Shown here in pieces: positions 715-21,373 of a stretch of 33,898 nucleotides of DNA. Numbering within the stretch: the first letter of the stretch is position 1; each line of letters opens with the position of its first letter. Source of the DNA: Verrucomicrobiaceae bacterium (GTDB taxonomy: Bacteria; Verrucomicrobiota; Verrucomicrobiia; Verrucomicrobiales; Verrucomicrobiaceae); contig JARXAL010000252.1 of the NCBI GenBank assembly GCA_029865835.1, positions 1-33,898 of the forward strand, read 5' to 3'. The position numbers and the translations under genes are program-made. A model generated the notes under the pieces. That model worked only from the letters and a program-made list of their open reading frames with translations. It was not told where the DNA came from and did no database searches.

Positions 715-725
715 TCGCCATCACT

Positions 726-2351: not shown

Positions 2352-2435
2352 GCACAGGGTCTAACCAAAACGATGTCCATGGGTTGCAGCTTGCTTGCTC
2401 GCGGCAGTTTGACAATTAGCCACCGAACTAATCCA

Positions 2436-2840: not shown

Positions 2841-2860
2841 GTCACAAAATGCAAACTTGT

Positions 2861-2879
2861 TACTTGCAATCAACAAGTA
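2861..2879. promoter_or_regulatory. Putative HxlR operator, site 1
   Basis: TACTTG and CAAGTA are separated by 7 bases, 20 bp upstream of the HxlR start. The half-sites are identical to those of site 2 and have the TACT...AGTA form known for DUF24/HxlR boxes. The centres of the two sites are 31 bp apart, about three helical turns, so two dimers would lie on the same DNA face. Confidence 0.6.
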
Positions 2880-2888
2880 TGGATGGCT

Positions 2889-2913
2889 TTATACTTGCAT
2901 ATTGCAAGTATAA
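2889..2913. promoter_or_regulatory. Putative HxlR operator, site 2 (25-bp palindrome)
   Basis: This is a perfect inverted repeat with 11-bp arms (TTATACTTGCA / TGCAAGTATAA) around a 3-bp centre. It ends two bases before the ATG at 2916. Its core is again TACTTG-N7-CAAGTA. TATA-like elements fall inside it, so a bound repressor would block RNA polymerase on either strand. This is the strongest operator candidate in the window. Confidence 0.7.
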
Positions 2914-2915
2914 TA

Positions 2916-3964: not shown

Positions 3965-5366
3965 CACACGCTACGCATGGCAAACCTTCGCGTTGGCGGC
4001 TTCCACGATCTTCATGGTCTCGCTAGATGCCACCGTAGTAGTGGCCGCCTTCCCCGCCTTGCGGGCACATTTTCCAGATGCCTCCGCTCCCTTGCTCTCT
4101 TGGATACTGAATGCCTACACCATCGTGTTTGCTGCCCTGCTCGTCCCTGCGGGAAGAATGGTGGATCAACTGGGGCATCGACGCTGCTTTCTTATCGCAG
4201 TTGCAGGTTTTACTCTGGCGTCCGCAGCCTGTGCCATCGCTTCCAGTCCGGCGACACTCATTACTGCACGAGTCGTCCAAGCTGTAGCGGCAGCCCTGGT
4301 TTCACCCGCCTCGCTCGCGCTCATTCTATCCTCATTTGCCGATGAGCATCGCTCCCGCTCCGCAGGCCTCTGGAGCGCTGTAGGCGCTTTGGCCGCCGCA
4401 TTGGGTCCACTGATTGGATCGCTGCTCATTGAGTGGTTCTCCTGGCGCATGATCTTTCTCATCAACCTGCCCATCGGCCTCACCGTGCTTTGGCTCGGGC
4501 ACCTTCGATTGAGGAGTGATAGAGTGAGCCAACAGAGGCAGAGCTATGATGTCATCGGCACACTTCTCCTCATCTTTGGGGTCGGTTGCATCGCTCATGG
4601 CTTGGCTGAAGCAGGTCAGGGGGCCTTTTTATCTCGATTGGTCATGATTCCCCTTTCGATCGGTGTCGTCTGTCTCATTGGCTTTCTGTTGCACGCTCAT
4701 GGGCGACCTGATTCGGCCCTGGATCTGCGTTTGTTCGCCGATTCAAATTATCGCTGGGCCAGTGCAGCGACGCTGGTGCTAGGCAGCGCTTTTGGCATGA
4801 TGTTTCTGTCCTTCTACCTCTTCTTCACGGGCGTTTGGCACTACCCACAATCCATGGCCGGTCTGGCCGCAACACCTGGACCCCTCCTGGCCACCCTCTT
4901 CGCCATCATCGTGAGCAAAAAACAAGGCCTATGGGGAAAGCGATGCTTGCTCACGATGGGTGGCGTTTTATTCGCTATCGGCAATCTCTGGCTAGCACTC
5001 CGCATCAGTCCTGTGCCGCATTACTTCGGCAAATGGCTGCCGGGTCAGATCATCAGCGGTATCGCCATCGGCCTCATGCTCCCCTCTCTCGCCGGAGTTG
5101 CAGTGCAGAAACTGAGGACCGATCGCCTTGGTGTCGGAAGCGCCGTCAACAACGCCATCCGCCAGCTAGGCAGCTCCCTCGGCGTCGCTCTAGCCGTCGC
5201 CCTCGCTGGCAGTGCCCTCAACAAGGTAGAACCCTTTCGACGGGTCTATCTCTGTCTTGTAGGAACAGGCCTGCTAATTGCCGCCTTGGCCCGGCAACTC
5301 GAAACCGTTGAAGGGCTGAAAAAAACCGCAGGACCACCCGAGACCGAGAATTCAGAGCACCGATGA
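3957..5366 (+). CDS. MFS efflux transporter, DHA2 (EmrB/QacA-like) family
   Basis: This is a 469-residue inner-membrane drug:proton antiporter. Diagnostic features are LDATVV in the first membrane helix (Asp24, DHA2 motif D1), GRMVDQLGHRR in the loop after helix 2 (motif A), and GALAAALGPLIGSLL (motif C of drug/H+ antiporters). The length and number of hydrophobic stretches fit 12-14 membrane helices. The start overlaps the 3' end of the ABM-like gene by 8 bp. As the last gene of the HxlR-controlled unit it probably pumps out the compound sensed by the repressor; the substrate is unknown. Only 55 bp separate its end from the converging gene, and no clear hairpin terminator was seen there. Confidence 0.9.
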   Translation: MNDTRYAWQTFALAASTIFMVSLDATVVVAAFPALRAHFPDASAPLLSWILNAYTIVFAALLVPAGRMVDQLGHRRCFLIAVAGFTLASAACAIASSPATLITARVVQAVAAALVSPASLALILSSFADEHRSRSAGLWSAVGALAAALGPLIGSLLIEWFSWRMIFLINLPIGLTVLWLGHLRLRSDRVSQQRQSYDVIGTLLLIFGVGCIAHGLAEAGQGAFLSRLVMIPLSIGVVCLIGFLLHAHGRPDSALDLRLFADSNYRWASAATLVLGSAFGMMFLSFYLFFTGVWHYPQSMAGLAATPGPLLATLFAIIVSKKQGLWGKRCLLTMGGVLFAIGNLWLALRISPVPHYFGKWLPGQIISGIAIGLMLPSLAGVAVQKLRTDRLGVGSAVNNAIRQLGSSLGVALAVALAGSALNKVEPFRRVYLCLVGTGLLIAALARQLETVEGLKKTAGPPETENSEHR

Positions 5367-6873: not shown

Positions 6874-7902
6874 TCACTGACCCGCCGTCGCGACTTCATT
6901 CGTCATGATCGTGAAATCACGCGCTGCCTTTCGCACCGCTGCTTCATCCGTCACAACGATGGTCGCCCCGGGAGTCAATAAGTCATACAACTTCGTCGCA
7001 AATTCTGGATTGAAACTCACCCGCTTCGCTAAGTCCTCAAAACTCGAACGCTTCGCATTCCCTTGATCCGCCACCGTCATCCAGTTCCGGGCTTTCCGAA
7101 AGGGTGCCAACAAACTCCACTTCTCCGTCTCCCCATCCAGCATCGAAAAAACATGCCCCCCAAGAGGTCCCTCACCCTCGATCCGAATCGCCGCCCGCCC
7201 AATCGGATTGCCATTCCGATACACATACATCGCTTTGTCAGCCCCGCTGACTAGAATCGTAATCGGACCTTCAGGACTACGCTCAGGCCTCCAGTCAAAC
7301 GCTCCATCCTCCAATGTCTTCAACATGTCAGGCGACAAATCCTTCGGTGCCAGCAGGATCCCCGGATTCGCCGCAAAATGCGGCTGTGGCGTCTTGTCAT
7401 TGCCAATCACCACCGTCCCGCCCTTCTCCGTCAAACTGAATAACAAGGTCGAAAAATCATACGGTAACCGAATGCACCCATGACTCGCCGGATACCCCGG
7501 TAGCGGCCCCGAATGCATGGCAATCCCGCTCCACGTCAGGCGCTGCATGTTCGGCATCGGCGCATTGTTGTACTTCTTGGAGCGATGACTCTGCTTCTTC
7601 TCCAAAATCGTAAACACCCCCGCTGGCGTCCCATGCCCCACCGCCCCCGTGCTGACCGACGACCGTCCCACCAGCACCCCGTTGCGATACACATGCATCA
7701 CCTGCAATGGCACCGAAACTAACACCACCACCGGCCCCGTCGGCGAGACCACCGGCGCCCACCAATATTCTCCCGGCTTTAATGGCCCGGTCGGCTTCCC
7801 TGTCGGCGTCCCCTTCGTATGAGCCGACGGCCGCTCCATGGCCCCAAACCCTGAAATCGATACGAGAACCCCGACAACACACAATAATAGGTACAGCTTC
7901 AT
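6874..7902 (-). CDS. L,D-transpeptidase (YkuD domain) with a degenerate second repeat
   Basis: The 342-residue envelope protein has an N-terminal signal sequence (residues 2-21). The YkuD domain spans about 57-168: HSGPLPGYPASHGCIRLP at 130-147 holds the catalytic His130, Ser140, His141 and Cys143. Such enzymes make 3-3 cross-links in peptidoglycan or attach proteins to it. Residues about 212-318 repeat the start of the domain (GPITILVS...YVYRNGNPIGRA against GPVVVLVS...HVYRNGVLVGRS) but lack the His/Cys part. The arrangement resembles a known two-part transpeptidase subfamily. A GTG at 7920 would add six residues; the ATG at 7902 gives a cleaner signal peptide. A 191-bp region separates it from the divergent MBOAT gene. 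Confidence 0.9.
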   Translation of the reverse strand: MKLYLLLCVVGVLVSISGFGAMERPSAHTKGTPTGKPTGPLKPGEYWWAPVVSPTGPVVVLVSVPLQVMHVYRNGVLVGRSSVSTGAVGHGTPAGVFTILEKKQSHRSKKYNNAPMPNMQRLTWSGIAMHSGPLPGYPASHGCIRLPYDFSTLLFSLTEKGGTVVIGNDKTPQPHFAANPGILLAPKDLSPDMLKTLEDGAFDWRPERSPEGPITILVSGADKAMYVYRNGNPIGRAAIRIEGEGPLGGHVFSMLDGETEKWSLLAPFRKARNWMTVADQGNAKRSSFEDLAKRVSFNPEFATKLYDLLTPGATIVVTDEAAVRKAARDFTIMTNEVATAGQ

Positions 7903-8035
7903 ACGCAGACGCCAAATCACACCCGAATCGCCATCCAGTCAAGCCACCCCTCACCTCCCCAAAAGCCCCCGGATGCAGCCCGCCAACTCAACGGCCCTTC
8001 CCCTCCGCCACCTTCGACAACTCAATGAAAAGGGT

Positions 8036-8093: not shown

Positions 8094-9482
8094 ATGCTTT
8101 TCTCAACACCGTTTTTTGTTTTCCTCTTTCTTCCCGTCTTCTTCGTCGGGTACTGGTTCCTGCCGGCGCGTGCGTGGGTGTTGCTTCTGGGAAGTCTCGT
8201 TTTCTACGGCTGGAGCGAGCCCGTTTTCCTCTGGGTCGTCGTCCTGTCCGCCTGGATCGACTGGCTGCTTGGGAAGCGCATCGTGGAAGGTCAGCCAAAC
8301 CGGAAACCTTGGCTCATGGCAGGCCTGGTGGCCAATCTCGGCCTTCTGTTCTATGCCAAATACACCGTCTTCGCGTTCGAAAATCTCAATGGCTTGCTCA
8401 ATGCCTTCGACTGGCAATCCTTGGCCGTCCCGAAGATCGCTCTGCCTCTCGGCGTATCGTTCATCGTCTTCGAAAAAATCACCTACCTGGTCGATGTCTA
8501 CCGCGGAACCGCCAAGCCCTCGGAGTCCTTTTTGAGCTACCTCAACTACGTCTTCCTTTTCCCAAAGTTACTCGCAGGTCCCATCGTCAAGTATCACGAC
8601 ATCGCAGCCCAGCTGAACCAACCCACCCACCGCTACGAGGATGTGCGGGACGGCGTGATCCGGTTTCTGACAGGTCTGGGAAAAAAGGTGTTGCTGGCCG
8701 ACCTGTTGGCTCCGGTGGCTGACAAGGCTTTTGACTTGCCTGCCACCACACTCGATCCGGCCACCGCCTGGTTGGGCCTCGTTTGCTTCACTCTGCAGAT
8801 CTACTTCGATTTCTCCGGTTACTCAGACATGGCCATCGGAATGGGCAGGATCCTCGGCTTTCGTCTCGCCGAAAACTTCCGCGACCCCTATCTCGCAACC
8901 AGTGTCACCGACTTCTGGAAGCGCTGGCACATTTCTCTGTCCACCTGGATCCGGGACTATCTCTACTTCCCTCTTTGCGGCAAACGACCCTCTCCAGCCC
9001 GCTCCTACGCCAGTCTCTCCGCTTGTTTTGTACTCTGCGGCCTCTGGCATGGCGCGGCTTGGCATTTTGTCATCTTCGGGTGTTACCACGGCCTCATCCT
9101 GGTGTGGGATCGTGCCTTCGGATTGGAGCTTCAAAAAAGACTGCCTCGTTTCGTGAACATGAGTTTGACGCTGTTCCTGGTGATGATGAGTTTCATCATC
9201 TTCCGCTGTGCCTCCGTGGGCCAAGCTCTCCAGTATTGGGCGGCCCTCGCCGGCTCCCAGGCCGTCGCGGGCAATGCCGTCTTTCTCGAGCATGACACCA
9301 TGACCGCCCTCTGTGCCAGTCTCGCTCTGGTCTTCGCTCCCTTGGCCCGCAGCCATCCCGGTGAGAAACCCCTGTCACCCCACCGTGCGCCCGCTTTACT
9401 CTGGGCCTGCGTCTTGTTGCTGTTGTGCGCCGGAAAAATGAGCGTCAGTACCTTCCATCCATTCCTCTATTTCCAGTTCTGA
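8094..9482 (+). CDS. MBOAT-family membrane O-acyltransferase (AlgI/DltB-like)
   Basis: This 462-residue multi-pass membrane protein passes an acyl group from a cytoplasmic donor across the membrane to an envelope acceptor. Family marks are the N-terminal LFSTPFFVFLFLP, YFDFSGYSDMAIGMGRILGF near 237-256, FWKRWHISLSTWIRDYLY near 274-291 (His279) and LCGLWHGAAWHF near 314-325 (His319, the catalytic histidine of the family). AlgI and PatA relatives acetylate polysaccharides, while DltB takes D-alanine from a carrier protein. The start ATG at 8094 is followed at once by the usual N-terminus. It leads a close-packed four-gene unit: 6 bp to the KAS III gene, then ACP and SGNH genes. That makes an ACP-bound acyl donor plausible. 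Confidence 0.93.
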   Translation: MLFSTPFFVFLFLPVFFVGYWFLPARAWVLLLGSLVFYGWSEPVFLWVVVLSAWIDWLLGKRIVEGQPNRKPWLMAGLVANLGLLFYAKYTVFAFENLNGLLNAFDWQSLAVPKIALPLGVSFIVFEKITYLVDVYRGTAKPSESFLSYLNYVFLFPKLLAGPIVKYHDIAAQLNQPTHRYEDVRDGVIRFLTGLGKKVLLADLLAPVADKAFDLPATTLDPATAWLGLVCFTLQIYFDFSGYSDMAIGMGRILGFRLAENFRDPYLATSVTDFWKRWHISLSTWIRDYLYFPLCGKRPSPARSYASLSACFVLCGLWHGAAWHFVIFGCYHGLILVWDRAFGLELQKRLPRFVNMSLTLFLVMMSFIIFRCASVGQALQYWAALAGSQAVAGNAVFLEHDTMTALCASLALVFAPLARSHPGEKPLSPHRAPALLWACVLLLLCAGKMSVSTFHPFLYFQF

Positions 9483-9488
9483 AGTCCC

Positions 9489-10481
9489 ATGCTGTCTGCC
9501 CGCATCAAATCCATAGCCAGTCATCTTCCGTCGCGGCAGATGACCAATGACGATCTTGCACGCTTGCACCCAGATTGGGACATGCCCAAAATCGAGAGCA
9601 AAATCGGCATTCGTAGCCGCTCGATCGCCTCCCCTGCCGAAACCGCCTCTGACCTCGCCTTCGAGGCCTGCCAAAAGCTGTTCGCCAACCCCGAGTGTGA
9701 TCGCTCCTCCGTCGACTACCTGCTCTTCTGCACCCAAAGCCCCGACTATTTCCTCCCCACCTCAGCCTGCATTCTTCAACACCGCTTGGGACTGCGAAAA
9801 GACTTGGGCGCCATGGACTTCAATCTCGGCTGCTCAGGCTACGTCTATGGGCTCAGCATCGCCAAGGGCCTCATCGAGACCGGCCAGGCAAGCCATGTCG
9901 TGCTCCTCACTGCTGACACTTACTCCAAATTCATTCAGGCCGACGACCGCAGTCTCGTGACCCTTTTTGGCGATGGTGGAACGGCGACTTGGATTGAAGC
10001 CGTCGAAAGCGAGAGTTCCCTGATGGGCCCCTTCGTTTTCGGAACCAATGGCGAGGGCGGGCCCAATCTGATGGTGAAACACGGCGGCATGAGACATCCT
10101 CTCTCTCATCCACTTTCGGGACCCGTCCCCTGTCCGATGCACATGGACGGCCCCGAGATCCTAAACTTCGCCATCCGTGTCGTCCCCGATTGCATGCAAC
10201 GCCTTCTCGACAAAGCAGGCGTGAATCAGGAAGAAGTGGATTGGTTTGTTTTTCACCAGGCCAATCTCTACCTGCTTGAGCACCTGCGCAAGCGTCTGGG
10301 AATCCCGCCGGAAAAGTTCCTCATTCATATGGCTGACACCGGTAACACCGTCTCCTCAACGATCCCATTGGTCCTGGAAGAAGCGTCCCGGCGTCACTCG
10401 TTCAAGACGGGGGATCGGATCTTGCTCCTGGGCTTCGGCGTGGGATACTCCTGGGCAGGAACGTTGCTCACCTGGCAGTGA
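9489..10481 (+). CDS. Ketoacyl-ACP synthase III-like enzyme (FabH/CerJ type)
   Basis: The 330-residue protein is a thiolase-fold condensing enzyme. The complete KAS III triad can be seen: Cys115 in NLGCSGYVYGL, His256 in FHQAN and Asn286 in DTGNTVSS. The C-terminus shows the family's LLGFGVGYSWAGTLL. FabH condenses acyl-CoA with malonyl-ACP, and CerJ-like relatives instead transfer an acyl group to a hydroxyl; both are possible here. It lies 6 bp after the MBOAT gene and 39 bp before a dedicated ACP, and there are no other fatty-acid genes nearby. It is therefore probably specialised for making or moving the acyl group used by this cassette, rather than the housekeeping FabH. Confidence 0.92.
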   Translation: MLSARIKSIASHLPSRQMTNDDLARLHPDWDMPKIESKIGIRSRSIASPAETASDLAFEACQKLFANPECDRSSVDYLLFCTQSPDYFLPTSACILQHRLGLRKDLGAMDFNLGCSGYVYGLSIAKGLIETGQASHVVLLTADTYSKFIQADDRSLVTLFGDGGTATWIEAVESESSLMGPFVFGTNGEGGPNLMVKHGGMRHPLSHPLSGPVPCPMHMDGPEILNFAIRVVPDCMQRLLDKAGVNQEEVDWFVFHQANLYLLEHLRKRLGIPPEKFLIHMADTGNTVSSTIPLVLEEASRRHSFKTGDRILLLGFGVGYSWAGTLLTWQ

Positions 10482-10520
10482 TAAGAACCCCACACTCGCC
10501 TTCACCACCTTTCTGATTAC

Positions 10521-10760
10521 ATGGCCATGACCCCAAACGAACTGTTGCAAGCGTTGGAAAAAATTCTGCAAATCCCGCCGGGCAGCGCACACACCGATGC
10601 CGTCCTGGCTGATCAGCCGGCTTGGGATTCAATGGGCGTCATGGAATTCATCATCTGGGTTGACGATCACTTCGGCATTTCCCTTCCCGCGCATCAAATC
10701 GGAGAGTGCCGAACCATTGGCGACCTCATGGCGCTTTGCGGCAGCCATGTCACCAATTGA
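10521..10760 (+). CDS. Acyl carrier protein
   Basis: The 79-residue acidic helical protein has the carrier-protein motif AWDSMGVMEF, which places the 4'-phosphopantetheine attachment site at Ser37. Asp36 before and Met38 after it are usual. Length and helix pattern fit ACP or DltC-like carriers. A second ATG at 10527 could also serve as the start. It lies between the KAS III and SGNH genes and is much more likely to hold the cassette's own acyl intermediate than to be the main fatty-acid ACP, which normally sits among fab genes. A phosphopantetheinyl transferase gene is not present in the window. Confidence 0.92.
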   Translation: MAMTPNELLQALEKILQIPPGSAHTDAVLADQPAWDSMGVMEFIIWVDDHFGISLPAHQIGECRTIGDLMALCGSHVTN

Positions 10761-10782
10761 ATCATCGACAAGGCCTTCAAGC

Positions 10783-12498
10783 ATGCGCCCAATCACAAAC
10801 CCAGTCGGGCAGGCCGTAGAGAAATGGCTTTTTGGCGGCCTTCTCGCCCTGTTCTTGACGCCGCTCACGCTGTCGTTGATCCACCGCTCCTGGCCCGGGA
10901 TTCTGCCGAACTCGCCCTGGCTTCGCAACGAGTCCTTGGAGGGCGTGGTGGTGAAACCTCCTCACGTCACCCTCTCATGGTCGACGCTGCGGACCGGCCA
11001 ATATCAGGCAAGCTTGGCCCATCAGTTCAACAGCAACTTCGCCGCGCGCGAACTGCTGATCCGGCTCACCTGCGAGAGTTGGTATCGGTTGTTCAGGCAA
11101 AGTCCACTGACCTCAGGAATTGTCCTCGGAAAAGAGGACTGCCTCTTCACTGACTACCACCTAGCCAAATACTGTCTCCTGAGAACTTCCACCGCGCAAT
11201 TGGAACCCATGGTGACCAAGCTGCGCAGTCTTCAAGAGGCCTGCGATAAAGTCGGCACACCGTTCACGGTCCTGATCACCCCAAGTAAGGCGTCGATACA
11301 ACCTGAAAACATACCTTCACCCTGGCTCCAGCGCTACGATCCGCGTCCCAGAGCCTACGATCAATTCGTGCCTCTTCTGACAAAGCACGGCGTGCGGTTT
11401 GTCGATGGTCGTGCCCTGACCCTTGAAATCAAGGCACATGAGCCTGCACCCGTCTTCCCCAAGGGCGGCATCCATTGGGGATCCCCGTCCGCCTTCGCCA
11501 CGGCTCAGGCACTCATCACCGCCTTACAGTCCCGTGACAAACCGCTCAAACCTCTCGAACACGAAACGCTTTCACTCTCGAATAGTCCCAAGGGCGACGA
11601 CGCTGATCTCGTCCGCTTGATGAACCTGGCACGACCCTGGCGTTATCCCGTTGCCAATCTCCAAGTGAAGCCGGCCGAAAAATTGCCGGGGAACCCCGGC
11701 TTCAACGCCACCTTCATTGGTGGAAGTTTCACAACTGCCGTGGCCGAGCAATTAAGCGCTTCGGGGCAGTTCTCCGAAGTCGATGCCTTCTTCTATTACA
11801 AGCAAGACAAGAGGTGTTTCGTAAAAGGCCAACTCCATTCGCTTAAGAGCCCTGTTCCTCAAGTCGATTTTGATCGGGAGATCTTCGCCTCCGACTTTCT
11901 AATCATGGAAATCAACGAGTCGTTCCTGGACTTCACTGACCAGCGTTACACGAATACTTTCATCGATGACGCATTGAATCATCTCGAGTCATGGAATGGC
12001 AACCGGTTGCCGTTCTTGCGGGAAGGTGAGCAACACATGGCCTACCAGCCAGGCCATAAAATCTCCTTTCGGGCCGATGACCACCCCTTTGGACACGCCC
12101 GCGACTGCTTGTCAGGTTTTGCAGACTGCGAAACTGGAGCGACATGGACGCAAGGACCAATCGCGACCCTCCGGCTATCCCTCCCCCCTCCCAAACATGA
12201 CTTGCGCCTTGATGCCACTGTGGGTGCCTTCATCCATCTTCCGCAACTGCCCGCACAAATCATCCAAGTTCACGCCAACGACCAATGGGTCGGCGAATGG
12301 AAGTTCACAGATCCTGGCGAAACCCGTCGGCAGGCCATCATTCCCAAAGAGTTCGTCGACCCGAATGGCAAACTCACCCTGCGTTTCGACATCGCTAATC
12401 CCACCTCCCCGGCAAGCCTTGGCATCGGCGATGATCATCGAAAACTCGGCATCTGGTTCTCCAAATTGAAATTGAGTGACTACCACCAAGGACGATGA
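10783..12498 (+). CDS. AlgX/AlgJ-type SGNH acyltransferase-like protein with C-terminal beta-sandwich
   Basis: The 571-residue protein has one N-terminal membrane helix (about residues 16-34) and an envelope-facing body. Residues about 115-320 match the AlgJ/AlgX SGNH-like family: LGKEDCLF near 115-122, TPSKASI near 166-172, KGGIHWG at 227-233 (His231 of the catalytic pair) and FIGGSF at 311-316 (Ser315, the likely nucleophile). The acidic residue usually two before the His is Gly here. Residues about 443-566 form a separate beta-rich domain (LSGFADCETGATW ... LGIWFSKLKL) that resembles one in the converging fusion gene. Family members take an acyl group passed out by an MBOAT protein and place it on a polysaccharide. 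An ATG at 10747 overlapping the ACP gene is an alternative start. Confidence 0.8.
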   Translation: MRPITNPVGQAVEKWLFGGLLALFLTPLTLSLIHRSWPGILPNSPWLRNESLEGVVVKPPHVTLSWSTLRTGQYQASLAHQFNSNFAARELLIRLTCESWYRLFRQSPLTSGIVLGKEDCLFTDYHLAKYCLLRTSTAQLEPMVTKLRSLQEACDKVGTPFTVLITPSKASIQPENIPSPWLQRYDPRPRAYDQFVPLLTKHGVRFVDGRALTLEIKAHEPAPVFPKGGIHWGSPSAFATAQALITALQSRDKPLKPLEHETLSLSNSPKGDDADLVRLMNLARPWRYPVANLQVKPAEKLPGNPGFNATFIGGSFTTAVAEQLSASGQFSEVDAFFYYKQDKRCFVKGQLHSLKSPVPQVDFDREIFASDFLIMEINESFLDFTDQRYTNTFIDDALNHLESWNGNRLPFLREGEQHMAYQPGHKISFRADDHPFGHARDCLSGFADCETGATWTQGPIATLRLSLPPPKHDLRLDATVGAFIHLPQLPAQIIQVHANDQWVGEWKFTDPGETRRQAIIPKEFVDPNGKLTLRFDIANPTSPASLGIGDDHRKLGIWFSKLKLSDYHQGR

Positions 12499-14897
12499 AA
12501 AACCTGGCAGATGAACTCACCCTCTCTTTGCCTGTCCCCCAGTCTGAGTTTCGTCTTCGATGAGAGGATTTGGACGCTTATGCCGGTGAAAAAGACCGTG
12601 TGAAACCGCGTGTAATCATACAGATAGTCATAACAGGCCGTGGCGTGACTCATCGAGCCTCCCCGCTTGAGCAATGACCGCAAAAACAAAAAGGTCTCTA
12701 TCGGCTTGGTGAAATGCTCGATGACATTATTCGAGTAGATCCCGTCAAATCGGCGCTCCTTGAGCCCCTTCTTGGTGAGCATGTTGGGATGACTGCCTTT
12801 ATAAAACGGATCATAAGCGTGCACCTCATAACCCTCTTCGTTCAACATCGAGGCGGACTTGGACCAACCACCCGATCCGTAGTTGAGATAGACTCCCCCC
12901 TTCCGGGGTGACAAGGCATGAAAGGCGCGGATTTCATTGTGCGTGGAGTCAGCTTCTGAATAGGTGGCGTAAAGATCCTTGTAGTCCTGTGCCAGCACGG
13001 CCGGGTGGAGTTCAATGACCTTGCGGGGCCCAAAAACACAACCGCACTCCGGGCATTCGTAACGTTCCAGCCGACCGCCTCCAAAGACGCACTCCGCCTC
13101 CCTGATCGTAAACGTCTCCACACGTGCCGAATACCCACAGACAAGGCACGTTGGCTTGTAGCTTTTCAGGATGCATTGATCAAGACGGTTCACCGCTTCC
13201 CAACGCCCTCGTATCCGACGCAAAATCCCCTCACGATCCGCTTCGGTGCCGCGAACACTCGATGAGCCGCCAACTCCCTTTTGCTCAGCGACGAATCTCA
13301 TCCTGCACAGCCCGAGCCCAAGGCTCCGCTGCCCCTCCTCAAGGCAGGTCGGATGTGGCACCAGGATCTCGATCGTCGAACACGGCTTTTTGAACTCCAT
13401 GCTGAGCGTTTGTGTCTCCGGTTCCCAGGGGGGCGACCCAAATGAGAGGACTCCCACAGCATCACCACACTTCACCGAAATAGGACAATTGAGGTTCGCT
13501 CCGTAGGCACCTCCAACAACCTCGATGCTTACCCGCCCATGAAGCGGCGTTTCAAGGCTGAGCTTGACGCTCGAACCGTCACTCCACCTTCCCCAGGAGT
13601 CCGGCTCCGAAAGCCCCTCGAAATGGCAAAGAAAAAGGGGCAGTTCCTCCTGGCTGAAATCTATACCCTCCTGGGGGTCGCCTTCACTGGCTGCCGGTCC
13701 GGCTATTTCACGTCTCCGCACAGGCTCACGTCGCGGACCCGTTTCAATAAAGGTCGCCTTCCGCGTCAATCGCAAGCGCCTCCCAATTTCCCGCCATAAC
13801 CTCGAGAAACCGCCATCTCCCCTCCCCTGGCTACCCAGACCGCTCCGCTTGATTTCCAGCCTCCACTGGGGCTTGCAAAACTCATCTGAGAAGCAACGAG
13901 GAATGTCTCTTTGATCGTCAACGATTCGGGCCCTCACTTCCCCAGTGTCTTCAATCAAAGCCCTCAAAAGAACCAGCGCCTCCGAACTGTCCTTCACTGC
14001 GCCAGCGACCATTCGTCCGGCCAGTCTTGACAGGAGACAATCGTCATGAAAAACAACCGGGGTGCCAGTGATCATCGCCTCGATCGGAGAGTAGTGCAGG
14101 TGCCTCCTCTCCCTGGACGGATAATAGAGCGCGGCACTTGTTTGATAGAGCTCAATCAACTCATCATCGGTGACAAAACCCCGAACATCGGGATCAGTCG
14201 TTGGCACATCCTGCGCACCCACGATGACATGCGGTAGATGCCCGAACTCCGATTTGAACAAGCCGTAAAGCCTCGCATAATAGGGATTGGTCACGAGGTT
14301 GGGACAGACGAAAAGAATCTTCCCCGATCCCCCACGCCAAGTTCCTTCGCGCCGCCAATACGAAGAGGGAAGTCCGATCGGAAGAAACAATCCTCGTCTG
14401 ACCAGAATCCGAGGCTCGTACTCCTTCAGTTGATCATACCCTGCGGCAAACCAAAACCGATCCCCTGCCGCTTTGATTCGCTCCAAAACCTCGATCCCGT
14501 GCAAATGGGCGAGAACGGCACCATAACTTTTCCCATTCTCCAGGCCAAATGCCCGGAACAAGACCCGTCCCTCAAAATGGCGCAAAGCTTCTAATGTCTG
14601 CAGTCCGAAAGGGATGATGAAGACTGCGCCAAAGTATTGATTGATAAAACGGACGACTTCCGGGCTCCAAAGGCGGTCATAAAAGTCAACCTCATTAAGG
14701 AGCTTCAACACCTCGTCAGGAAGGCTCAGCGTTGAATCCCATTGATGGCTCACAGAAGCACTCCTGAACGCCGCATCCTGGGGTGTCACCTTGGGCACAA
14801 AGACCTCAAACCCCATTTCAACAAGAAGCGGAACCTCGTACTGCATGAGTGTCTTGTGATTCAAAAGCCACAAGATCCGGCGGTGTCTCTTAAACAT
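12480..14897 (-). CDS. Multidomain glycosyltransferase / beta-sandwich / zinc-ribbon / SAM methyltransferase
   Basis: This 805-residue protein looks like a fusion of two sugar-modifying enzymes. Residues 1-340 form a GT-B type glycosyltransferase: the second half has GKILFVCPN near 192-200, the DDELIELYQTSAALYYPS stretch near 244-261 and SPIEAMITGTPVVF near 270-283, the nucleotide-sugar region. Residues about 424-537 are a beta-rich domain (FEGLSEPDSWGRWSDG). Two Cys pairs, CLVC at 584-587 and CPECGC at 615-620, suggest a zinc ribbon. Residues about 650-805 resemble a class I methyltransferase: VYLNYGSGGW near 669-678 as the SAM-binding loop, then SNNVIEHF. It probably adds a sugar and methylates a glycan in the cytoplasm. 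Its stop lies inside the 3' end of the SGNH gene (19-bp overlap). It is last in the minus-strand run. Confidence 0.75.
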   Translation of the reverse strand: MFKRHRRILWLLNHKTLMQYEVPLLVEMGFEVFVPKVTPQDAAFRSASVSHQWDSTLSLPDEVLKLLNEVDFYDRLWSPEVVRFINQYFGAVFIIPFGLQTLEALRHFEGRVLFRAFGLENGKSYGAVLAHLHGIEVLERIKAAGDRFWFAAGYDQLKEYEPRILVRRGLFLPIGLPSSYWRREGTWRGGSGKILFVCPNLVTNPYYARLYGLFKSEFGHLPHVIVGAQDVPTTDPDVRGFVTDDELIELYQTSAALYYPSRERRHLHYSPIEAMITGTPVVFHDDCLLSRLAGRMVAGAVKDSSEALVLLRALIEDTGEVRARIVDDQRDIPRCFSDEFCKPQWRLEIKRSGLGSQGRGDGGFSRLWREIGRRLRLTRKATFIETGPRREPVRRREIAGPAASEGDPQEGIDFSQEELPLFLCHFEGLSEPDSWGRWSDGSSVKLSLETPLHGRVSIEVVGGAYGANLNCPISVKCGDAVGVLSFGSPPWEPETQTLSMEFKKPCSTIEILVPHPTCLEEGQRSLGLGLCRMRFVAEQKGVGGSSSVRGTEADREGILRRIRGRWEAVNRLDQCILKSYKPTCLVCGYSARVETFTIREAECVFGGGRLERYECPECGCVFGPRKVIELHPAVLAQDYKDLYATYSEADSTHNEIRAFHALSPRKGGVYLNYGSGGWSKSASMLNEEGYEVHAYDPFYKGSHPNMLTKKGLKERRFDGIYSNNVIEHFTKPIETFLFLRSLLKRGGSMSHATACYDYLYDYTRFHTVFFTGISVQILSSKTKLRLGDRQREGEFICQVFHRPWW

Positions 14898-14939: not shown

Positions 14940-16265
14940 TCAGTGCTCCACATGGATTTTGGGTTTGATGCCGAATAGTGATTCACAGACTACCTCAATC
15001 CGCTCATTCAACGGTGCATGGCCCTCCCGCCCACCCAGGGCCGCCACCTTCGCCTTCAATTGTCCTCGCGACAGCGCAACCGCTTTCAAATGAAGGAGAC
15101 CCCGGCAAAGGTCCATGATCTGCTCCGCATATCGTTCCGCCGAACAATGCGCTCTGACCCAGCCAGGGCCAAGTCGGGACTTCTCGAGGGCCTTCGGATA
15201 GTCGCCACAGATGCCCTCCAGATGCCTGACAATATCAGCGACCTCATTTGCTGGATCGACTTTCCAAACCATGTCATCCGGCAACTGCCGATAAAATCCC
15301 GCATTCGTAACAAGCATAGGTCGCCCGTATTGCAGTCCCTCCAACACACTGCCGCTACCCCCCTCCAATGTTGGATATCGAAGGCAGCAGATCACATCCG
15401 ATGCATTCAAGCACGCGTTCATCTCCGCGTCGGTGACTCTTCCAAGGATTCGCAACCCGCGAAACCTCAGTTCGGTGGCGAGGGCTTCCAAAGCAACCCG
15501 CTGGTCATCCGTGATGGGTCCTGCAAGGGTGTAGGTCGCTCGATCCATGAGCTTTGGCAATGCCGCGATGGCCCTCATAACCGAAGCCGCCCGTTTGTTT
15601 TCATTCATGTGCCCAATCGTGCACAACACCACTTGGCTTCCTTCAAGTCGTTCACGCGGCAACCTTTGCTGCGGAGTGGCAAAGGCTGGCAACATCAGCA
15701 CCCGACACTTGCTTCGGCACGATTCAGGAAGGGCTTCAACACAATGATCCGAATGAACCACGACTGCGCTCGCTTTGGACGCGATCTCATGCATGAAAGG
15801 CCAATGCTCCGCAGCCGAGGTGACCCAGTCAAAATGGTCCAGACTCGGAGCACTCGTGGCGCTGGGATCCGGGCCGTACATCCTAATCGCCTCGTCGCAT
15901 AGCTTTTGCACAGCAGAACGCCCGCCAGTCAAATGGGCTTTGCCCAGAAAGTAATTCAGCATCGTCGCATCATGTAAAACCGCGATGCATGGGTTGGCCT
16001 GCAGGAACGCGAGCGCCTTCGCATGAAAAGGCCAATGATCGCCAAAATGAACGACTGTAGCATCAAAATCCCCCGGCGCCCGCAATTGGAAGGGCAAGCG
16101 CGCAAGAAACGGCTCCGTCAATGGCTTGGAGTGCACCCGTGTCAGATCCTCGGTTCGCACCACACTCACCTCCGCACCCAGTTGTTTCAAACAGCGCACT
16201 ACCGTGGCACTCACCCGCGCGATGGCCGAATCGACGTTCCAAGGTGTGGCCCAGAGAATCTTCAT
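14940..16265 (-). CDS. Glycosyltransferase, GT4-like (GT-B fold)
   Basis: The 441-residue cytoplasmic protein starts with MKILWATPWN, a typical GT-B first strand. The C-terminal domain carries VVLCTIGHMNENKR near 212-224, TYTLAGP near 244-250, GLRILGRVTDAEM and PTLEGGSGSVLEGLQYGRP near 298-316, where Glu301 and Glu309 form the E-x7-E motif that binds the nucleotide sugar. Such enzymes are retaining and transfer a sugar from an NDP-sugar to a growing glycan. Its start overlaps the stop of the preceding glycosyltransferase gene by 4 bp, so the two are coupled; 42 bp separate it from the fusion gene downstream. It is longer than its neighbours and diverges from them, so it probably uses another acceptor. 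Confidence 0.87.
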   Translation of the reverse strand: MKILWATPWNVDSAIARVSATVVRCLKQLGAEVSVVRTEDLTRVHSKPLTEPFLARLPFQLRAPGDFDATVVHFGDHWPFHAKALAFLQANPCIAVLHDATMLNYFLGKAHLTGGRSAVQKLCDEAIRMYGPDPSATSAPSLDHFDWVTSAAEHWPFMHEIASKASAVVVHSDHCVEALPESCRSKCRVLMLPAFATPQQRLPRERLEGSQVVLCTIGHMNENKRAASVMRAIAALPKLMDRATYTLAGPITDDQRVALEALATELRFRGLRILGRVTDAEMNACLNASDVICCLRYPTLEGGSGSVLEGLQYGRPMLVTNAGFYRQLPDDMVWKVDPANEVADIVRHLEGICGDYPKALEKSRLGPGWVRAHCSAERYAEQIMDLCRGLLHLKAVALSRGQLKAKVAALGGREGHAPLNERIEVVCESLFGIKPKIHVEH

Positions 16266-17302
16266 GCGAGCAGACGGTCTATCGTGTTACTCCAATCCGG
16301 CGAAATCTGCTCAATAGCATCCCGGGCATTCTCCCCCATCCGCTTCGCGTCAGCAGGATTAGAGATCATCAAGGTTAGCGCCATCGAGACAGACTCCGCA
16401 TCCGGTTCCACAACAAGCCCCGTTTGCCCATGACTCACCAGATCCAAAATGCCTCCCGAATCGCTGCAACAGATCACAGCCTTCGACGCGTAAAACGACT
16501 CCATCGTCACATAGCCGACCGAATCCTCATCGACAGGCAGGTAGGCGCAGGCAAGGGCCCCATTCACGTAGAAAGCAAGACGTTCCCGTGGAATGAATCC
16601 CAGGTCTAGCATCACTCGGTCATGAAGCCCAAGGTCGGCGATCAACTGTTTGAGGCGTGCTCCATCGTCCTCGCTTTCAGGGGGTCCGGCAATGATGAGT
16701 TTACATCCTGAGGGGGCATGCGCCATTGCCTCAACCAGCAGATGCTGCCGCTTCATCAGATTGATACGTCCCCCGGCAAAGATGTAATCACCATAGCCCG
16801 TATTTTGAAAATCGTCTTGGGATGTCACGGGCGGGAGAAGTATCTCCGACGAAAAGCCATTGAACTGACTCAGTCTCGCTTGAGTGATCCTTGAATTCAC
16901 AAACAGGCGTCGGCACGAGGCAAAGCACGCATTGTCAGACGAGACAATGGCATTCCGCACATCATCACTGCACTTGTCCTCGATGAGATTGGTCAGGTTC
17001 GTCCCGCGCAAGTCATAGGCCTGACGGTATTGGTGCAGCAGCCAGAGGGTCTTGTGAGGGTGGTGTATAAGGTACGCCGGGAACTTTAACGCAATGACGC
17101 GGTCCACGTTGTCAATCTGCATCGCCAGGCAACTCAAAATGGAATCGAGAATCTTCTCGGGAGGATCCCACGTGAAAGGCACTCGCACGAGTTCAGCACG
17201 CACGCCCTTGGTCACATTCAACTTTGCCGTAAGGGTGTCCGCTAGCTCCTCCGCGCCGCCCCTCACAAACGGAGCCATGTTGTTCAAAACTAGCACTTTC
17301 AT
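16262..17302 (-). CDS. Glycosyltransferase, GT4 family, tandem paralogue A
   Basis: The 346-residue GT-B glycosyltransferase starts with MKVLVLNNMAPFVRGGAEE, the usual N-terminal loop for GT4 enzymes. Its C-terminal half contains YIFAGGRINLMKRQHLLVEAM, KLIIAGPPES, LGFIPRERLAFYV, and a donor-site stretch around DEDSVGYVTMESFYASKAVI, followed by SDSGGILDLV. Length is normal for the family. It overlaps the downstream GT gene (ATGA) and the upstream paralogue by 4 bp each, so three GT genes form one tight unit. Its similarity to the next gene upstream along the whole length suggests tandem duplication. Donor and acceptor sugars are unknown. Confidence 0.9.
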   Translation of the reverse strand: MKVLVLNNMAPFVRGGAEELADTLTAKLNVTKGVRAELVRVPFTWDPPEKILDSILSCLAMQIDNVDRVIALKFPAYLIHHPHKTLWLLHQYRQAYDLRGTNLTNLIEDKCSDDVRNAIVSSDNACFASCRRLFVNSRITQARLSQFNGFSSEILLPPVTSQDDFQNTGYGDYIFAGGRINLMKRQHLLVEAMAHAPSGCKLIIAGPPESEDDGARLKQLIADLGLHDRVMLDLGFIPRERLAFYVNGALACAYLPVDEDSVGYVTMESFYASKAVICCSDSGGILDLVSHGQTGLVVEPDAESVSMALTLMISNPADAKRMGENARDAIEQISPDWSNTIDRLLA

Positions 17303-18336
17303 GACAGGAGTTGCTCTACAACGTGATCCCAGGTGATGTTCAATTCCCGGACTCTCTCCTCAGCCCGACGACCCATTTCACGCGCCAAATTTCGGTTCTC
17401 ATAGAGTCGGTCAAAACATTCCGCCAGGGCTTCAGGTGTTGGCTCGCACACCAGTCCGTTGTTCTCATGTTCGATGAGTTCGAGAACCCCTCCCGAATCA
17501 TGAGTCGTGATCACCGCCTTCCTCGAGTGACTGGCCTCAAGTGACGGATAACCATACGAATCTTCGTCCAATGGGATGTACAATGCCGCCAGACAATGTG
17601 CAAAAGCTGCGGCCTTTTCTTCCTCTGTAATCCAACAGAGGTTTGTCGTCACCTTTGATTCAAGGCCGTTCTCCCTGACGATCTTTCGCAACTCGTCCGG
17701 GTACTGCTCACTTGAAGCCGCGCCACAGAGTCTCAACTTGACTGGTGTCCGGACATGCTTCATGGCCTCCACTGCCAAATGCTGACGCTTGTGATGTTCG
17801 GCGCGGCAAACATACAGGATTTCATCCCCTAAGGACTGGAATCCAAATCGCTCCGGCTCGAATAAAGGCGGATAGAGCGTCTGACTTTCAATGCCGTTGA
17901 ACTTGCGAAGACGATTGCCGACAACGTTGGAATTCGTGAAGACCTTGCGTGACTCGCTGATCGTCGCGTTGTCCGCCGCCATCAATGCCGCCCTGACCGA
18001 GCGCAGCGCCACATTGTCCGGCCAGGGCCGGTAGGGGTGTTCCCATAGGTCGTAGAATACTCGGATATGGTGAATGAACCACAGAACCTTGTTCTCATGA
18101 GGAAGAACGTAAGAAGGCGGTCGTAGAGCTATCAATCGGTCCGCACTCTTTCCAATCTCCAAAAGACGCAACCCCATCATCTGCTGCACCAGCGTATTCG
18201 GGTCATCCGAGAAAGGCAGATAGATCTCTTCCACTTGATGACCCCGCGTCCTCAGGGTGGCCGCCAGCCATTTCACAATAAATCGTCCTCCACCGTCAAC
18301 GAAGGGCACAATGGTCGAACAGATGGCGACTTTCAT
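17299..18336 (-). CDS. Glycosyltransferase, GT4 family, tandem paralogue B
   Basis: The 345-residue GT-B protein starts at MKVAICSTIVPFVDGGG. The frame stays open further upstream to 18717, but that part is a shadow of the aminotransferase gene, and the family N-terminus fixes the ATG at 18336. The C-terminal domain shows ILYVCRAEHHKRQHLAVEAM, VKLRLCGAASS, and IPLDEDSYGYPSLEASHSRKAVI followed by HDSGGVLELI; these match paralogue A position by position. It begins one base after the aminotransferase stop and overlaps paralogue A by 4 bp. The two paralogues may add the same sugar twice or consecutive related sugars, which is inferred. Confidence 0.9.
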   Translation of the reverse strand: MKVAICSTIVPFVDGGGRFIVKWLAATLRTRGHQVEEIYLPFSDDPNTLVQQMMGLRLLEIGKSADRLIALRPPSYVLPHENKVLWFIHHIRVFYDLWEHPYRPWPDNVALRSVRAALMAADNATISESRKVFTNSNVVGNRLRKFNGIESQTLYPPLFEPERFGFQSLGDEILYVCRAEHHKRQHLAVEAMKHVRTPVKLRLCGAASSEQYPDELRKIVRENGLESKVTTNLCWITEEEKAAAFAHCLAALYIPLDEDSYGYPSLEASHSRKAVITTHDSGGVLELIEHENNGLVCEPTPEALAECFDRLYENRNLAREMGRRAEERVRELNITWDHVVEQLLS

Positions 18337-18337
18337 T

Positions 18338-19516
18338 TTACTGGCTGCAACGCTCAATGGCCTCACAAAGAATCTGAGCAATCCAAACTTGGTCCTCTTC
18401 CGAAAGCTTTTCGTGTGTCGGCAAACAAATGCCGGATTCAGAAAGCCGGGTTGAAACCGGCACTCCCCCTGCTTGATCAAGATAGGGGGGCATTGCATTG
18501 GCCGGATAAAACACTGGGCGGGTCTCAATCCCATGATGATCCATGTACTCAACCACAGCGTCACGACGGTCCGCACTAATGCCCTTAATGAAGACCACAT
18601 ACATCCAATACACATGATGCGCCCATGGTGCCACCTGAGGCAGTTGCAAACGGTCAGTGGCAGTCTCAAGCAACCGATTGTAGTTCGCGGCCACTTTTTG
18701 TCGGGCCTCGAGAGCAACCCCCACTCGTTCCATCTGCGCCAATCCGATGGCAGCGACGATGTTCGTCATGCGGTAATTGAATCCCACGACGAGGTGCCAG
18801 TAACGTCTGCATGGATCCATTCCCTGCCCCCGATACAATCGCAGTCTCGCTGCCAGTTCATCACTGTCACAAGTAATCATCCCCCCTTCACCCGTAGTGA
18901 TGATCTTATTGCCGTAAAAGCTGAACGTCGCGCAGTCCGCCAGACTGCCAACGCTGCGTTCTTTGTATCTTGACCCGTGTGCCTGGGCTGCGTCCTCAAC
19001 AACCCAAAGCCCTCTGGTCAAGGCAATCTGGTTCAGTGCATCCATATCCGCCGGGTGCCCGAAGAGATGAACCGCTATGATCCCCTTGCACTTGGAGCTG
19101 ACCTTACTCTCAAGAGAGTCAGGCGACATCGAAAGGGTCAAGGGATCGCAGTCCACAAAAATCGGCTTCGCCCCGCAATAGCGAACGGCATTGGCAGTCG
19201 CAATATAAGTCAATGCCGGCACGAGTACTTCATCCCCCTCCTTTAAACCCATGCCTACGAGAGCGAGATGCAAGGCCGTCGTTCCGTTACTACAAGCGAT
19301 CGCATGTTTGCTCCCGGTGAACTCTGCGAATCGCTGCTCAAACGCCGTGATGTATTTCCCTGCTGAGGATATCCAGGTGCTCTCAATGCACTCGGCGACC
19401 ATGGCCATGGTTTGCTCACCCAAAACGGGTGCGGCCACAGGAATGCGATGTCTGATGGGGCTCAAGGTGCTGTTAAAAAAGTGTCTTGAGATTCTTTCCT
19501 CGTGCCATGAGAACAT
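18338..19516 (-). CDS. DegT/DnrJ/EryC1/StrS-type sugar aminotransferase
   Basis: This is a PLP-dependent enzyme of 392 residues that converts a keto-sugar nucleotide to an amino sugar. Family marks are SNGTTALHLAL near 76-86, EVLVPALTYIATANAV near 96-111, VEDAAQAHGSRY near 173-184, and FSFYGNKIITTGEGGM near 199-213, where Lys204 binds PLP, then NYRMTNIVAAIGLAQM. The best matches by memory are PglE/PseC-like 4-aminotransferases. The ATG at 19516 gives a 44-bp overlap with the FkbM gene; homologues usually start just before IPVAAPVLG, so a shorter TTG start near residue 18 is possible. The NeuD/PglD-like acyltransferase two genes upstream would acylate the new amine. The dehydratase making the keto-sugar is not in the window. 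Confidence 0.92.
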   Translation of the reverse strand: MFSWHEERISRHFFNSTLSPIRHRIPVAAPVLGEQTMAMVAECIESTWISSAGKYITAFEQRFAEFTGSKHAIACSNGTTALHLALVGMGLKEGDEVLVPALTYIATANAVRYCGAKPIFVDCDPLTLSMSPDSLESKVSSKCKGIIAVHLFGHPADMDALNQIALTRGLWVVEDAAQAHGSRYKERSVGSLADCATFSFYGNKIITTGEGGMITCDSDELAARLRLYRGQGMDPCRRYWHLVVGFNYRMTNIVAAIGLAQMERVGVALEARQKVAANYNRLLETATDRLQLPQVAPWAHHVYWMYVVFIKGISADRRDAVVEYMDHHGIETRPVFYPANAMPPYLDQAGGVPVSTRLSESGICLPTHEKLSEEDQVWIAQILCEAIERCSQ

Positions 19517-20570
19517 TGGTTGTCTCCAAAAGTATCAAGTCATCGAACGAGGCTCTTCGCAGATCGCCTGAGGGTTCTTCGACGACGAACACCTCCAGGC
19601 CATGTTCTTGACAAAAGGCTTTCCAATCAGCCACCTGAGCACCTGGCCGGCTCAGGTGAGTCGCGTAAAATGAAGCCACCACACACCCATCAGGACTCCT
19701 CGCCAAAAGCTGGCGCATCCCTGCGAAAACCTCCAGTTCCGCTCCGTCCACATTCACTTTGACCAAATCAACTGCCGGCACCTCCGCCAAAACATCGTCG
19801 AGTGCCACCACCTGAACCTCGCTCATGGCAGTCGCACTTGGCGGAAAAATCGTGCCATCGTGCCCGCCGTTCGGAAACAACGGATATGGGGCCATTCCAG
19901 AGGCGGTTCCAACAAAGTTTGGATACACTTTGACTTGGGTTCCAAGGCCATTCTGAGTCACGTTCTGTCTCAGACATTCCGCAGTCTCAGGAACGGCTTC
20001 AAAAGCATGCACCTTTCCTTTTCGGCCTACACACCGTCCCGCAGCGATCGAGTGCATTCCAATATGCGCACCGACCTCGACAAATGTCATCCCTTCCTCC
20101 AGATATCGTTCAATGAAGCACCTCAGACCCGGCTCAAGTTCCCTGCTGTCGATCAAGGCACCCAGCAATACGGGGTCACGCCTGTCGCAGATCATGTATC
20201 CGACGGTAGTTCTTACGAGTGCGCGACTGGAATCCAAAGGAAACGCAAAACGGCTCGACACAAATTCATTCCGATCTGCAAACGAAACTGCCAGTGAATC
20301 CATTTTCTCGCGCAATGCCGTTTGGAGGGCGCATAACAAATCCAAGTTGTCCGCAATTGATCGGGAATGCTCAATCAGACGTGTTTTCATCTCGTTAGCA
20401 TTGGCCCGAATCGCTTTGTTCTGAATCTCAAATGAGGCGTCCAGGTCCGATCTGAGACTCGCCAAGAGCGACTTTCTTTGCACCAAATGCGCTTGGTCCA
20501 AGTGCAGCCTGAGGTGCTTCGTAAACGGTCGCGCAAGAGCCGTCGCTAGTTTCTGAAGGATGGATGCCAT
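19473..20570 (-). CDS. FkbM-family methyltransferase with helical N-terminal extension
   Basis: The 365-residue protein has two parts. Residues 1 to about 105 are charged and helical, with a look of coiled coil. Residues about 140-340 form an FkbM-type SAM methyltransferase: MTFVEVGAHIGMHS near 161-173 is the SAM-binding loop (variant of the usual VDVGANIG), KVHAFEAVPET near 186-196 is strand 2 with its acidic residue, and VDLVKVNVDGAELEVFAGM is the conserved late motif. FkbM enzymes O-methylate hydroxyls, often on sugars of exported glycans. A GTG or other start at 20609 would add 13 residues; the ATG at 20570 is preferred. It lies between the NeuD-like and DegT genes, with 110 bp upstream and 44 bp of overlap downstream. 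Confidence 0.85.
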   Translation of the reverse strand: MASILQKLATALARPFTKHLRLHLDQAHLVQRKSLLASLRSDLDASFEIQNKAIRANANEMKTRLIEHSRSIADNLDLLCALQTALREKMDSLAVSFADRNEFVSSRFAFPLDSSRALVRTTVGYMICDRRDPVLLGALIDSRELEPGLRCFIERYLEEGMTFVEVGAHIGMHSIAAGRCVGRKGKVHAFEAVPETAECLRQNVTQNGLGTQVKVYPNFVGTASGMAPYPLFPNGGHDGTIFPPSATAMSEVQVVALDDVLAEVPAVDLVKVNVDGAELEVFAGMRQLLARSPDGCVVASFYATHLSRPGAQVADWKAFCQEHGLEVFVVEEPSGDLRRASFDDLILLETTNVLMARGKNLKTLF

Positions 20571-20680
20571 GAAGCTTGAACCAGAAATCCCAATTGGGGT
20601 CCAGAGCAAAAGCTATGGAGGGTTTCCCACCGTGTCAAAGAGATACGTCGCTCCAAACGCGCCCAGAACGATCACACCTT

Positions 20681-21346
20681 TTACAAGTACGACTCTCCTG
20701 GCACACGTTCACGCACAAAGCGGCACGGCTGACCGAAACACACTGAATATCCCGGCACGTCCTGCATCACGATGGCTCCGGCCCCCACGACCGAATGCTC
20801 GCCGATGACGATATCCTGTTTAACCATCGCACCAATGCACACGGCACTGTAGGCACCCACCCGCACATTTCCGCCGAGTACGGCTCCTGGCGCAAGACTT
20901 GAAAAGTCGCCCAAGCTCGAATCATGATCCAAAGACGCATTCGTGTTGACGATGCAGAAGCGACCAATCCTCGCGTCGCTGTTCACCACAGCTCCCGCCA
21001 TGATCACCGACCCTTCAGAGATCGCCACCCCCCGGGCGATGCTTGAGTCGGGATGAACAGCGGTCGCAAACTGAAAGTCAGGACATAGGGATAGGATTTT
21101 TCTCCGAATACGGTCGCGGAGAAAATTGTCACCCACGGCAATGATGCCATAATGCACTTCCTGTTCTCGGACAATTCGCGGCAAGTCGTCATCCTGGCCT
21201 AAGACGGTGCATCCAAAGACCTGGTTGGTGACTGCGGCTTGGCTGCCACTTATCACACCAACGATGTCCCAAAGCCGCGTCTTCTCCAAGACATCGATCA
21301 CAACCCTCGCATGTCCGGCTGCACCAAAAACGACGATTCTTTTCAT
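20681..21346 (-). CDS. NeuD/PglD-family sugar N- or O-acyltransferase (left-handed beta-helix)
   Basis: The 221-residue protein begins with KRIVVFGAAGHARVVIDVLE, the Rossmann-like nucleotide-sugar domain of the NeuD/PglD family. From about residue 97 it shows hexapeptide repeats of a left-handed beta-helix (SSIARGVAISEGSVIMAGAV and further). NTNASLDHDSS near 134-144 holds His141, corresponding to the catalytic His of PglD. It ends with PCRFVRERVP, another family mark. Such enzymes use acetyl-CoA, or other acyl-CoA or acyl-ACP, to acylate an amino sugar nucleotide. With the DegT aminotransferase it forms a PglE/PglD-like pair. The ATG at 21346 is chosen over an upstream start at 21370. Confidence 0.9.
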   Translation of the reverse strand: MKRIVVFGAAGHARVVIDVLEKTRLWDIVGVISGSQAAVTNQVFGCTVLGQDDDLPRIVREQEVHYGIIAVGDNFLRDRIRRKILSLCPDFQFATAVHPDSSIARGVAISEGSVIMAGAVVNSDARIGRFCIVNTNASLDHDSSLGDFSSLAPGAVLGGNVRVGAYSAVCIGAMVKQDIVIGEHSVVGAGAIVMQDVPGYSVCFGQPCRFVRERVPGESYL

Positions 21347-21373
21347 AGTGAGTTTGAGTCGATATTGCACAGC

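Follow-up and report, generated by a model that had tools for sequence, protein, structure and literature searches.

What would a condensing enzyme and a carrier protein do between the two halves of a surface-glycan acylation relay? The question is raised by four genes at positions 8094–12498 of contig JARXAL010000252.1, from the Verrucomicrobiaceae assembly GCA_029865835.1; the whole stretch analysed, 33,898 nucleotides, is called the window here. The first gene (8094..9482, plus strand) encodes a membrane-bound O-acyltransferase (MBOAT) of the AlgI/PatA type with 462 residues (Pfam MBOAT, 2.9e-33). The second (9489..10481, plus strand) encodes a beta-ketoacyl-acyl carrier protein synthase III (KAS III) of the VioS clade, with 330 residues (Pfam ACP_syn_III, 1.6e-21; C-terminal domain, 4.4e-34). 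The third (10521..10760, plus strand) encodes a dedicated acyl carrier protein (ACP) of 79 residues (Pfam PP-binding, 3.8e-8, over the cut-off), and the fourth (10747..12498, plus strand) a membrane-anchored SGNH O-acyltransferase of the AlgX/AlgJ type, recognized by a Pfam ALGX match (3.5e-14), its residues and its predicted fold. The locus is composed of two known modules, an MBOAT–SGNH pair and a KAS III–ACP pair lying between its members. Its most likely function is a Dlt-like, carrier-fed relay in which the condensing enzyme stands in place of DltA and an acyl group passes from the ACP to the MBOAT, then to the SGNH protein and to the outer glycan.

The four genes are tightly packed, with gaps of 6 bp between MBOAT and KAS III and 39 bp between KAS III and ACP, and the start codon of the SGNH gene precedes the ACP stop in a 14-bp overlap. 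They form the sole plus-strand unit between the minus-strand genes at 6874–7920 (a YkuD gene) and 12480–14897. Because the unit is isolated and its genes are joined by short gaps and an overlap, the only operon partners of the KAS III–ACP pair are the MBOAT and the SGNH protein. The GC (guanine plus cytosine) content is even along the unit (0.554–0.576), and scans for promoters and terminators gave no signal above chance. The possibility of a chimeric contig was dismissed as unlikely, since the base composition is uniform and the ACP and SGNH genes overlap. Gene order, protein families, catalytic residues, the shuttle motif and the kinship of each half can all be read from the sequence. The open reading frames and coordinates given in the preliminary description of this locus were confirmed, its four gene identities were borne out by Pfam and fold prediction, and the residues it had listed (His279 and His319 of the MBOAT, the Cys-His-Asn triad of the KAS III and Ser37 of the ACP) are present.

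In the outer half of the locus, His319 of the MBOAT lies within the motif GLWHG, and the protein ends in HPFLYFQF, which contains the FxYxxF acyl-shuttle motif as FLYFQF (residues 457–462, with Tyr459). This motif has been explained elsewhere (PMC12148441) and is found in 84 of the 85 MBOAT relatives surveyed. Acyl-relaying residues have been demonstrated in PatA and in DltX/DltB (PMC12148441), and Tyr459 and His319 of the window protein match them. The SGNH protein has the residues His243 and Ser327. Its predicted model (mean pLDDT 71) presents a transmembrane helix at residues 19–48 followed by a domain of the AlgJ/AlgX/PatB1 kind, which in the model matched AlgJ (4o8v, E 1.9e-11), AlgX (4knc, 1.6e-10) and PatB1 (5v8d, 8e-6). 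The protein belongs to a subfamily with G-x-H-W in place of D-x-H-W, and within that subfamily it is set apart by GGS where the others have GDS, a change of the Asp preceding the Ser to Gly.

Beyond this domain there is an additional C-terminal beta-sandwich (about residues 465–577), a region of low confidence in the model, which resembles a BcsB domain and the carbohydrate-binding module (CBM) CBM36. The same segment (window positions 11974–12498) is found again, at 39% identity, as the C-terminal part of a Wzt-like ABC ATPase in another locus (L036, 1495–3264), and it shows a weak resemblance to DUF7024 in the adjacent glycosyltransferase. These similarities suggest a domain shared among proteins of the glycan machinery.

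To place this pair among its relatives, 376 genomes of the phylum were surveyed, and the surroundings were taken for MBOAT matches at E 1e-90 or better. An SGNH gene was present in the fetched stretch of 79 of the 83 loci, and the other four lay near a contig end or had short flanks. In the usual pairs the two genes are adjacent, with a start-stop overlap. Eight genomes (G395, G392, G173, G144, G309, G279, G404 and G417) were among the closest relatives of both window proteins, as would be expected of two genes that travel together. In several loci a single MBOAT is accompanied by two or three consecutive SGNH genes (L066 at 263–4104, L112, L121, L126, L144, L170 and L174), which suggests that one membrane relay may serve more than one acceptor. 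By kinship the MBOAT–SGNH half is an ordinary relay of the AlgI/AlgJ–PatA/PatB kind. Like the AlgI/AlgJ–AlgX and PatA/PatB pairs, it combines an MBOAT bearing a C-terminal FxYxxF motif with a membrane-anchored SGNH protein of AlgJ/AlgX fold in a glycan cluster; unlike them, it has KAS III and ACP genes between the two. The known members of those systems use acetyl-coenzyme A (acetyl-CoA) and no carrier protein, and on the current view MBOAT–SGNH systems other than Dlt draw in general on acyl-CoA donors and have no carrier (PMC12148441). The earlier statement that alginate- and PatAB-type systems work without a carrier protein thus agrees with the literature, where it is explicit.

The inner half has a different ancestry. 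The KAS III keeps the intact catalytic triad of condensing enzymes (Cys115-His256-Asn286), and its best relative of solved structure is 3gwa (E 5.5e-108). In the phylogenetic tree it fell inside a fully supported main clade of 31 enzymes, the VioS clade, next to an enzyme from the viosamine island of Burkholderia glumae (52% identity), with moderate support (86/81). The tree also contained a second KAS III clade, and in seven loci a member of one clade occurs together with a member of the other. Relatives at about 40–53% identity have a scattered distribution: they were found in 14 of 388 genomes of the phylum (the window's own included), in 5 of 384 in the class sample, in 5 of 199 and 6 of 188 genomes of two other phyla, and further in Epilithonimonas, an acidobacterium and the B. 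glumae plasmid pBGF3. The ACP keeps Ser37, in AWDSMG, and is nearest to the ACPs of VioS-type loci (best 6e-17, versus 3e-5 for the fatty acid synthesis ACP). Five carrier domains in the assembly exceed the Pfam cut-off. Since the genome has a distinct fatty acid synthesis ACP on another contig (C135), the window ACP is considered a dedicated one.

Among 19 loci of KAS III relatives with wide flanks, 17 carry an ACP, 16 a VioR-type short-chain dehydrogenase/reductase (SDR), eight a NeuD/VioB-type gene and eight a DegT gene. On pBGF3 the order is flagellin, fliD, fliT, a TPR protein, vioA, KAS III, ACP, SDR and acetyltransferase, which is a viosamine island. To judge from these relatives, the KAS III–ACP pair represents the 'R-group' module known from viosamine and Qui2NAc4NR glycans (VioS/ACP, WfpC-E), described for the viosamine island (PMC3927599) and for wfpC–wfpG of Flavobacterium (PMC6519341). 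The window resembles the VioS-ACP-VioR-VioB arrangement of Pseudomonas syringae and B. glumae pBGF3 in the KAS III, the similar adjoining ACP and the glycan setting; it differs in having no VioR-type reductase and no adjacent VioB, and in its MBOAT and SGNH partners. The product of the P. syringae island carries an N-(3-hydroxy-1-oxobutyl) group, and the pathway is genetically supported by vioA, vioB, vioT, vioM and vioR mutants (PMC3927599). The window pair is also like wfpC–wfpG of Flavobacterium psychrophilum, where a KAS and a dedicated ACP supply a surface glycan with a short hydroxyacyl group, proposed to be 3,5-dihydroxyhexanoyl (PMC6519341). There the group is amide-linked to Qui2NAc4N in the cytoplasm via a PglD homologue, whereas the transferase linked to the window pair is an O-acyl export relay.

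The preliminary description had also noted a Dlt-like order of membrane acyltransferase, carrier and SGNH protein, and this holds: the arrangement parallels dltB-C-D, with a carrier gene between MBOAT and SGNH, and the proposed transfer across the membrane would likewise be carrier-fed. Compared with DltABCDX, though, there is no DltA (an AMP-binding domain occurred in none of the 26 window proteins scanned), a condensing enzyme is present, and there is no separate DltX, the Tyr motif sitting on the MBOAT itself. The MBOAT lies far below the DltB cut-off (TIGR04091, 168.9 bits against 375), the ACP lies below that of the DltC model (16.9 against 68), and the DltC-docking helix is not evident. 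On these features the four-gene locus is not a Dlt system, because three defining features of Dlt are absent.

How often the two modules meet was assessed from both sides. No KAS III gene occurred in the 83 MBOAT loci of the phylum, and 20 additional loci, taken from the same genus and family, had neither KAS III nor ACP, which brings the count for KAS III to none of 103. The sole MBOAT locus with an ACP nearby (L161) was rejected, as it proved to be a convergent fatty acid synthesis cluster with FabH, FabG and the fatty acid synthesis ACP. Conversely, neither MBOAT nor SGNH genes occurred in any of the 28 KAS III loci (the 19 with wide flanks and nine with short ones). The four-gene combination was found nowhere else in the more than 1,000 genomes sampled, a fraction of GTDB, or in the plasmid records listed; among the latter, Azospirillum ramasamyi alone had both KAS III and MBOAT, at a distance of about 51 kb. 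No relative was found in the viral contigs searched, and no described system with an MBOAT, an ACP and a KAS was found in the open-access literature. Both halves are of known kinds; their combination, seen once in this sample, is regarded as new and not as a conserved family.

For the preliminary description this gives a divided outcome. Its gene identities and Dlt-like layout stood; a conserved form of its four-gene cassette is not supported, since the rarity that it had itself named as speaking against its reading is what the sample presents. The two modules may have been functionally fused in this one case. The shuttle motif at the end of the MBOAT and the additional C-terminal domain of the SGNH protein had escaped the description. 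It had also overlooked that the KAS III–ACP pair is a known R-group module, and for this reason the alternative of sugar N-acylation becomes much stronger.

We propose that an MBOAT–SGNH operon has taken up a KAS III–ACP pair of the viosamine R-group kind and that the four products work as one relay, a reading to which we give an even chance. In such a relay the KAS III would condense a short acyl-CoA with malonyl-ACP, so that the dedicated ACP carries a 3-oxoacyl group (probably acetoacetyl), and a housekeeping reductase would perhaps convert it to the 3-hydroxyacyl form. The ACP would dock at the cytoplasmic face of the MBOAT, where His319 would assist the movement of the acyl group onto Tyr459 in the enzyme's own C-terminal motif. 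The SGNH protein would accept the group on Ser327 while its CBM-like domain holds the polymer, and a hydroxyl of the exported glycan would be esterified. We infer that the MBOAT draws on the ACP instead of acetyl-CoA, and likewise which acyl group is carried and which glycan accepts it. The full proposal of a carrier-fed MBOAT–SGNH relay outside Dlt, with a KAS III building 3-oxo- or 3-hydroxyacyl-ACP and a Tyr-shuttle MBOAT taking the ACP-bound group in place of acetyl-CoA for export to the outer glycan, is made tentatively, as slightly short of evenly balanced.

Transfer from the ACP to the MBOAT is favoured because the operon is isolated, the ACP occupies a dltBCD-like position, the genome has a separate VioB-like locus and the MBOAT is strongly divergent. 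Of 85 columns with a conservation of at least 95%, the MBOAT deviates at 12, more than any of its 84 relatives (median 1); the changes of Arg177 to Pro and Gly295 to Cys, at otherwise invariant positions, occur in no other member of the set. Such deviations would be permitted by a changed donor. This is a weak point of the argument, because the window MBOAT is also an isolated branch, its nearest relative being 45% identical.

Several observations weigh against a carrier-fed relay. The isolation of the MBOAT could by itself explain its deviations, and a DltB-like signature was sought in them and dropped, as the overlap between the deviations of the window protein and those of DltB was not significant (P about 0.05). 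In DltB the HC helix (Met302, Val305, Ile306, Met309) is the docking site of DltC (PMC11035591). The corresponding region of the window MBOAT is shorter in alignments and aligns ambiguously, so that the protein seems to lack the longer helix (Met302–Met309 of DltB); other modes of ACP–MBOAT docking may exist. The close MBOAT–SGNH relatives have no carrier, and the default donor of the family would therefore be acyl-CoA. The relatives of the window KAS III that have a known role serve sugar N-acylation. To these are added the empty counts of the survey: no KAS III in 103 MBOAT loci, no MBOAT or SGNH in 28 KAS III loci, and no second instance of the four genes.

There is an alternative that we regard as possible rather than probable, in which the KAS III–ACP pair makes the N-acyl group of an amino sugar for a NeuD/VioB-type enzyme, while the MBOAT and SGNH protein separately O-acetylate with acetyl-CoA and merely share the operon. 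It is favoured by the company of enzymes about 50% identical to the window KAS III, which includes ACP, VioR-type SDR, NeuD and DegT genes at the frequencies given above, by the vioA-KAS III-ACP-SDR-acetyltransferase row behind flagellin on pBGF3, and by the seven loci with one KAS III gene from each clade. The pathway itself is supported by the vio mutants of P. syringae (PMC3927599) and was proposed for WfpC/E, WfpD, WfpF and WfpG in F. psychrophilum (PMC6519341). A user could be the NeuD encoded in the window (20681–21370, minus strand), which with a DegT gene lies about 8–10 kb from the KAS III–ACP pair, or a second enzyme of the same genome on contig C241 (L199, 2215–5528). On the latter contig lie an ACP, a second-clade KAS III, a VioB-like NeuD, a family-2 glycosyltransferase and, at its end, a DegT fragment, together a classical R-group N-acylation module. 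Its KAS III was first a candidate for a housekeeping FabH; this was dropped, as it lies within an ACP–KAS III–NeuD arrangement and groups, with weak support, with the second clade of VioS-type loci.

Other observations speak against this alternative. The DegT and NeuD genes of the window stand on the opposite strand, in a unit separate from the KAS III–ACP pair, and the NeuD is not VioB-like: it shares 22% identity with the VioB-like NeuD on C241, and its best match (40%) is a NeuD beside DegT and away from the KAS gene (L181). The earlier suggestion that the ACP feeds the local NeuD is weakened by this result. Since the enzyme on C241 has its own ACP and KAS III, it does not need those of the window. 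No VioR-type reductase was found in the window, and the best candidate in the genome, an 85.6% complete assembly, had 31% identity (2.4e-19). In addition, the insertion splits an MBOAT–SGNH pair that is otherwise adjacent.

KAS III-like enzymes can also work as acyltransferases, as CerJ does. A KAS III that acted in this manner, or that unloaded the ACP, would feed or edit the donor of the MBOAT instead of condensing. The lack of a dedicated reductase nearby would agree with such a role, which we nevertheless judge improbable, given the intact triad and the identity of about 50% to the VioS group, held to make 3-oxoacyl-ACP. A chance neighbourhood or an assembly join, bringing together two modules without shared function, likewise appears unlikely: the locus comes from a single fragmented assembly (4.0 Mb in 292 contigs), but the uniform GC content, the arrangement of the four genes as one unit and the 14-bp overlap at one junction speak against it.

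The neighbouring glycan cluster includes, on the minus strand, a fusion of a family-4 glycosyltransferase, DUF7024 and a methyltransferase (12480..14897), three family-4 glycosyltransferases (14940..18717) and an aminosugar part (18338..21370) that encodes a LegC-like DegT aminotransferase, an FkbM methyltransferase and the NeuD acyltransferase. A gene that apparently joins a DUF116 domain to a polyprenyl synthetase (22353–24197) adjoins the cluster. Elsewhere in the genome, contig C185 (L200, 5373–8743) has a small cluster of SDR and carrier-protein genes of fatty-acid or polyketide type, and on contig C139 (L195, near 8888) a carrier domain lies inside an open frame of 2599 residues, probably a large multidomain synthase.

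Should the carrier-fed relay be true, MBOAT–SGNH relays would be able to exchange a CoA-bound donor for an ACP-bound one and to export a group tailored by a condensing enzyme. The chemistry known for the O-acylation of surface glycans would thereby be broadened, and the way in which bacterial MBOATs recognize their donors would become directly testable. Even if the pair serves N-acylation, the locus documents the movement of R-group genes between acylation systems. For the bacterium itself, the four genes may be a means to decorate its outer sugar polymer with a custom-made acyl group.

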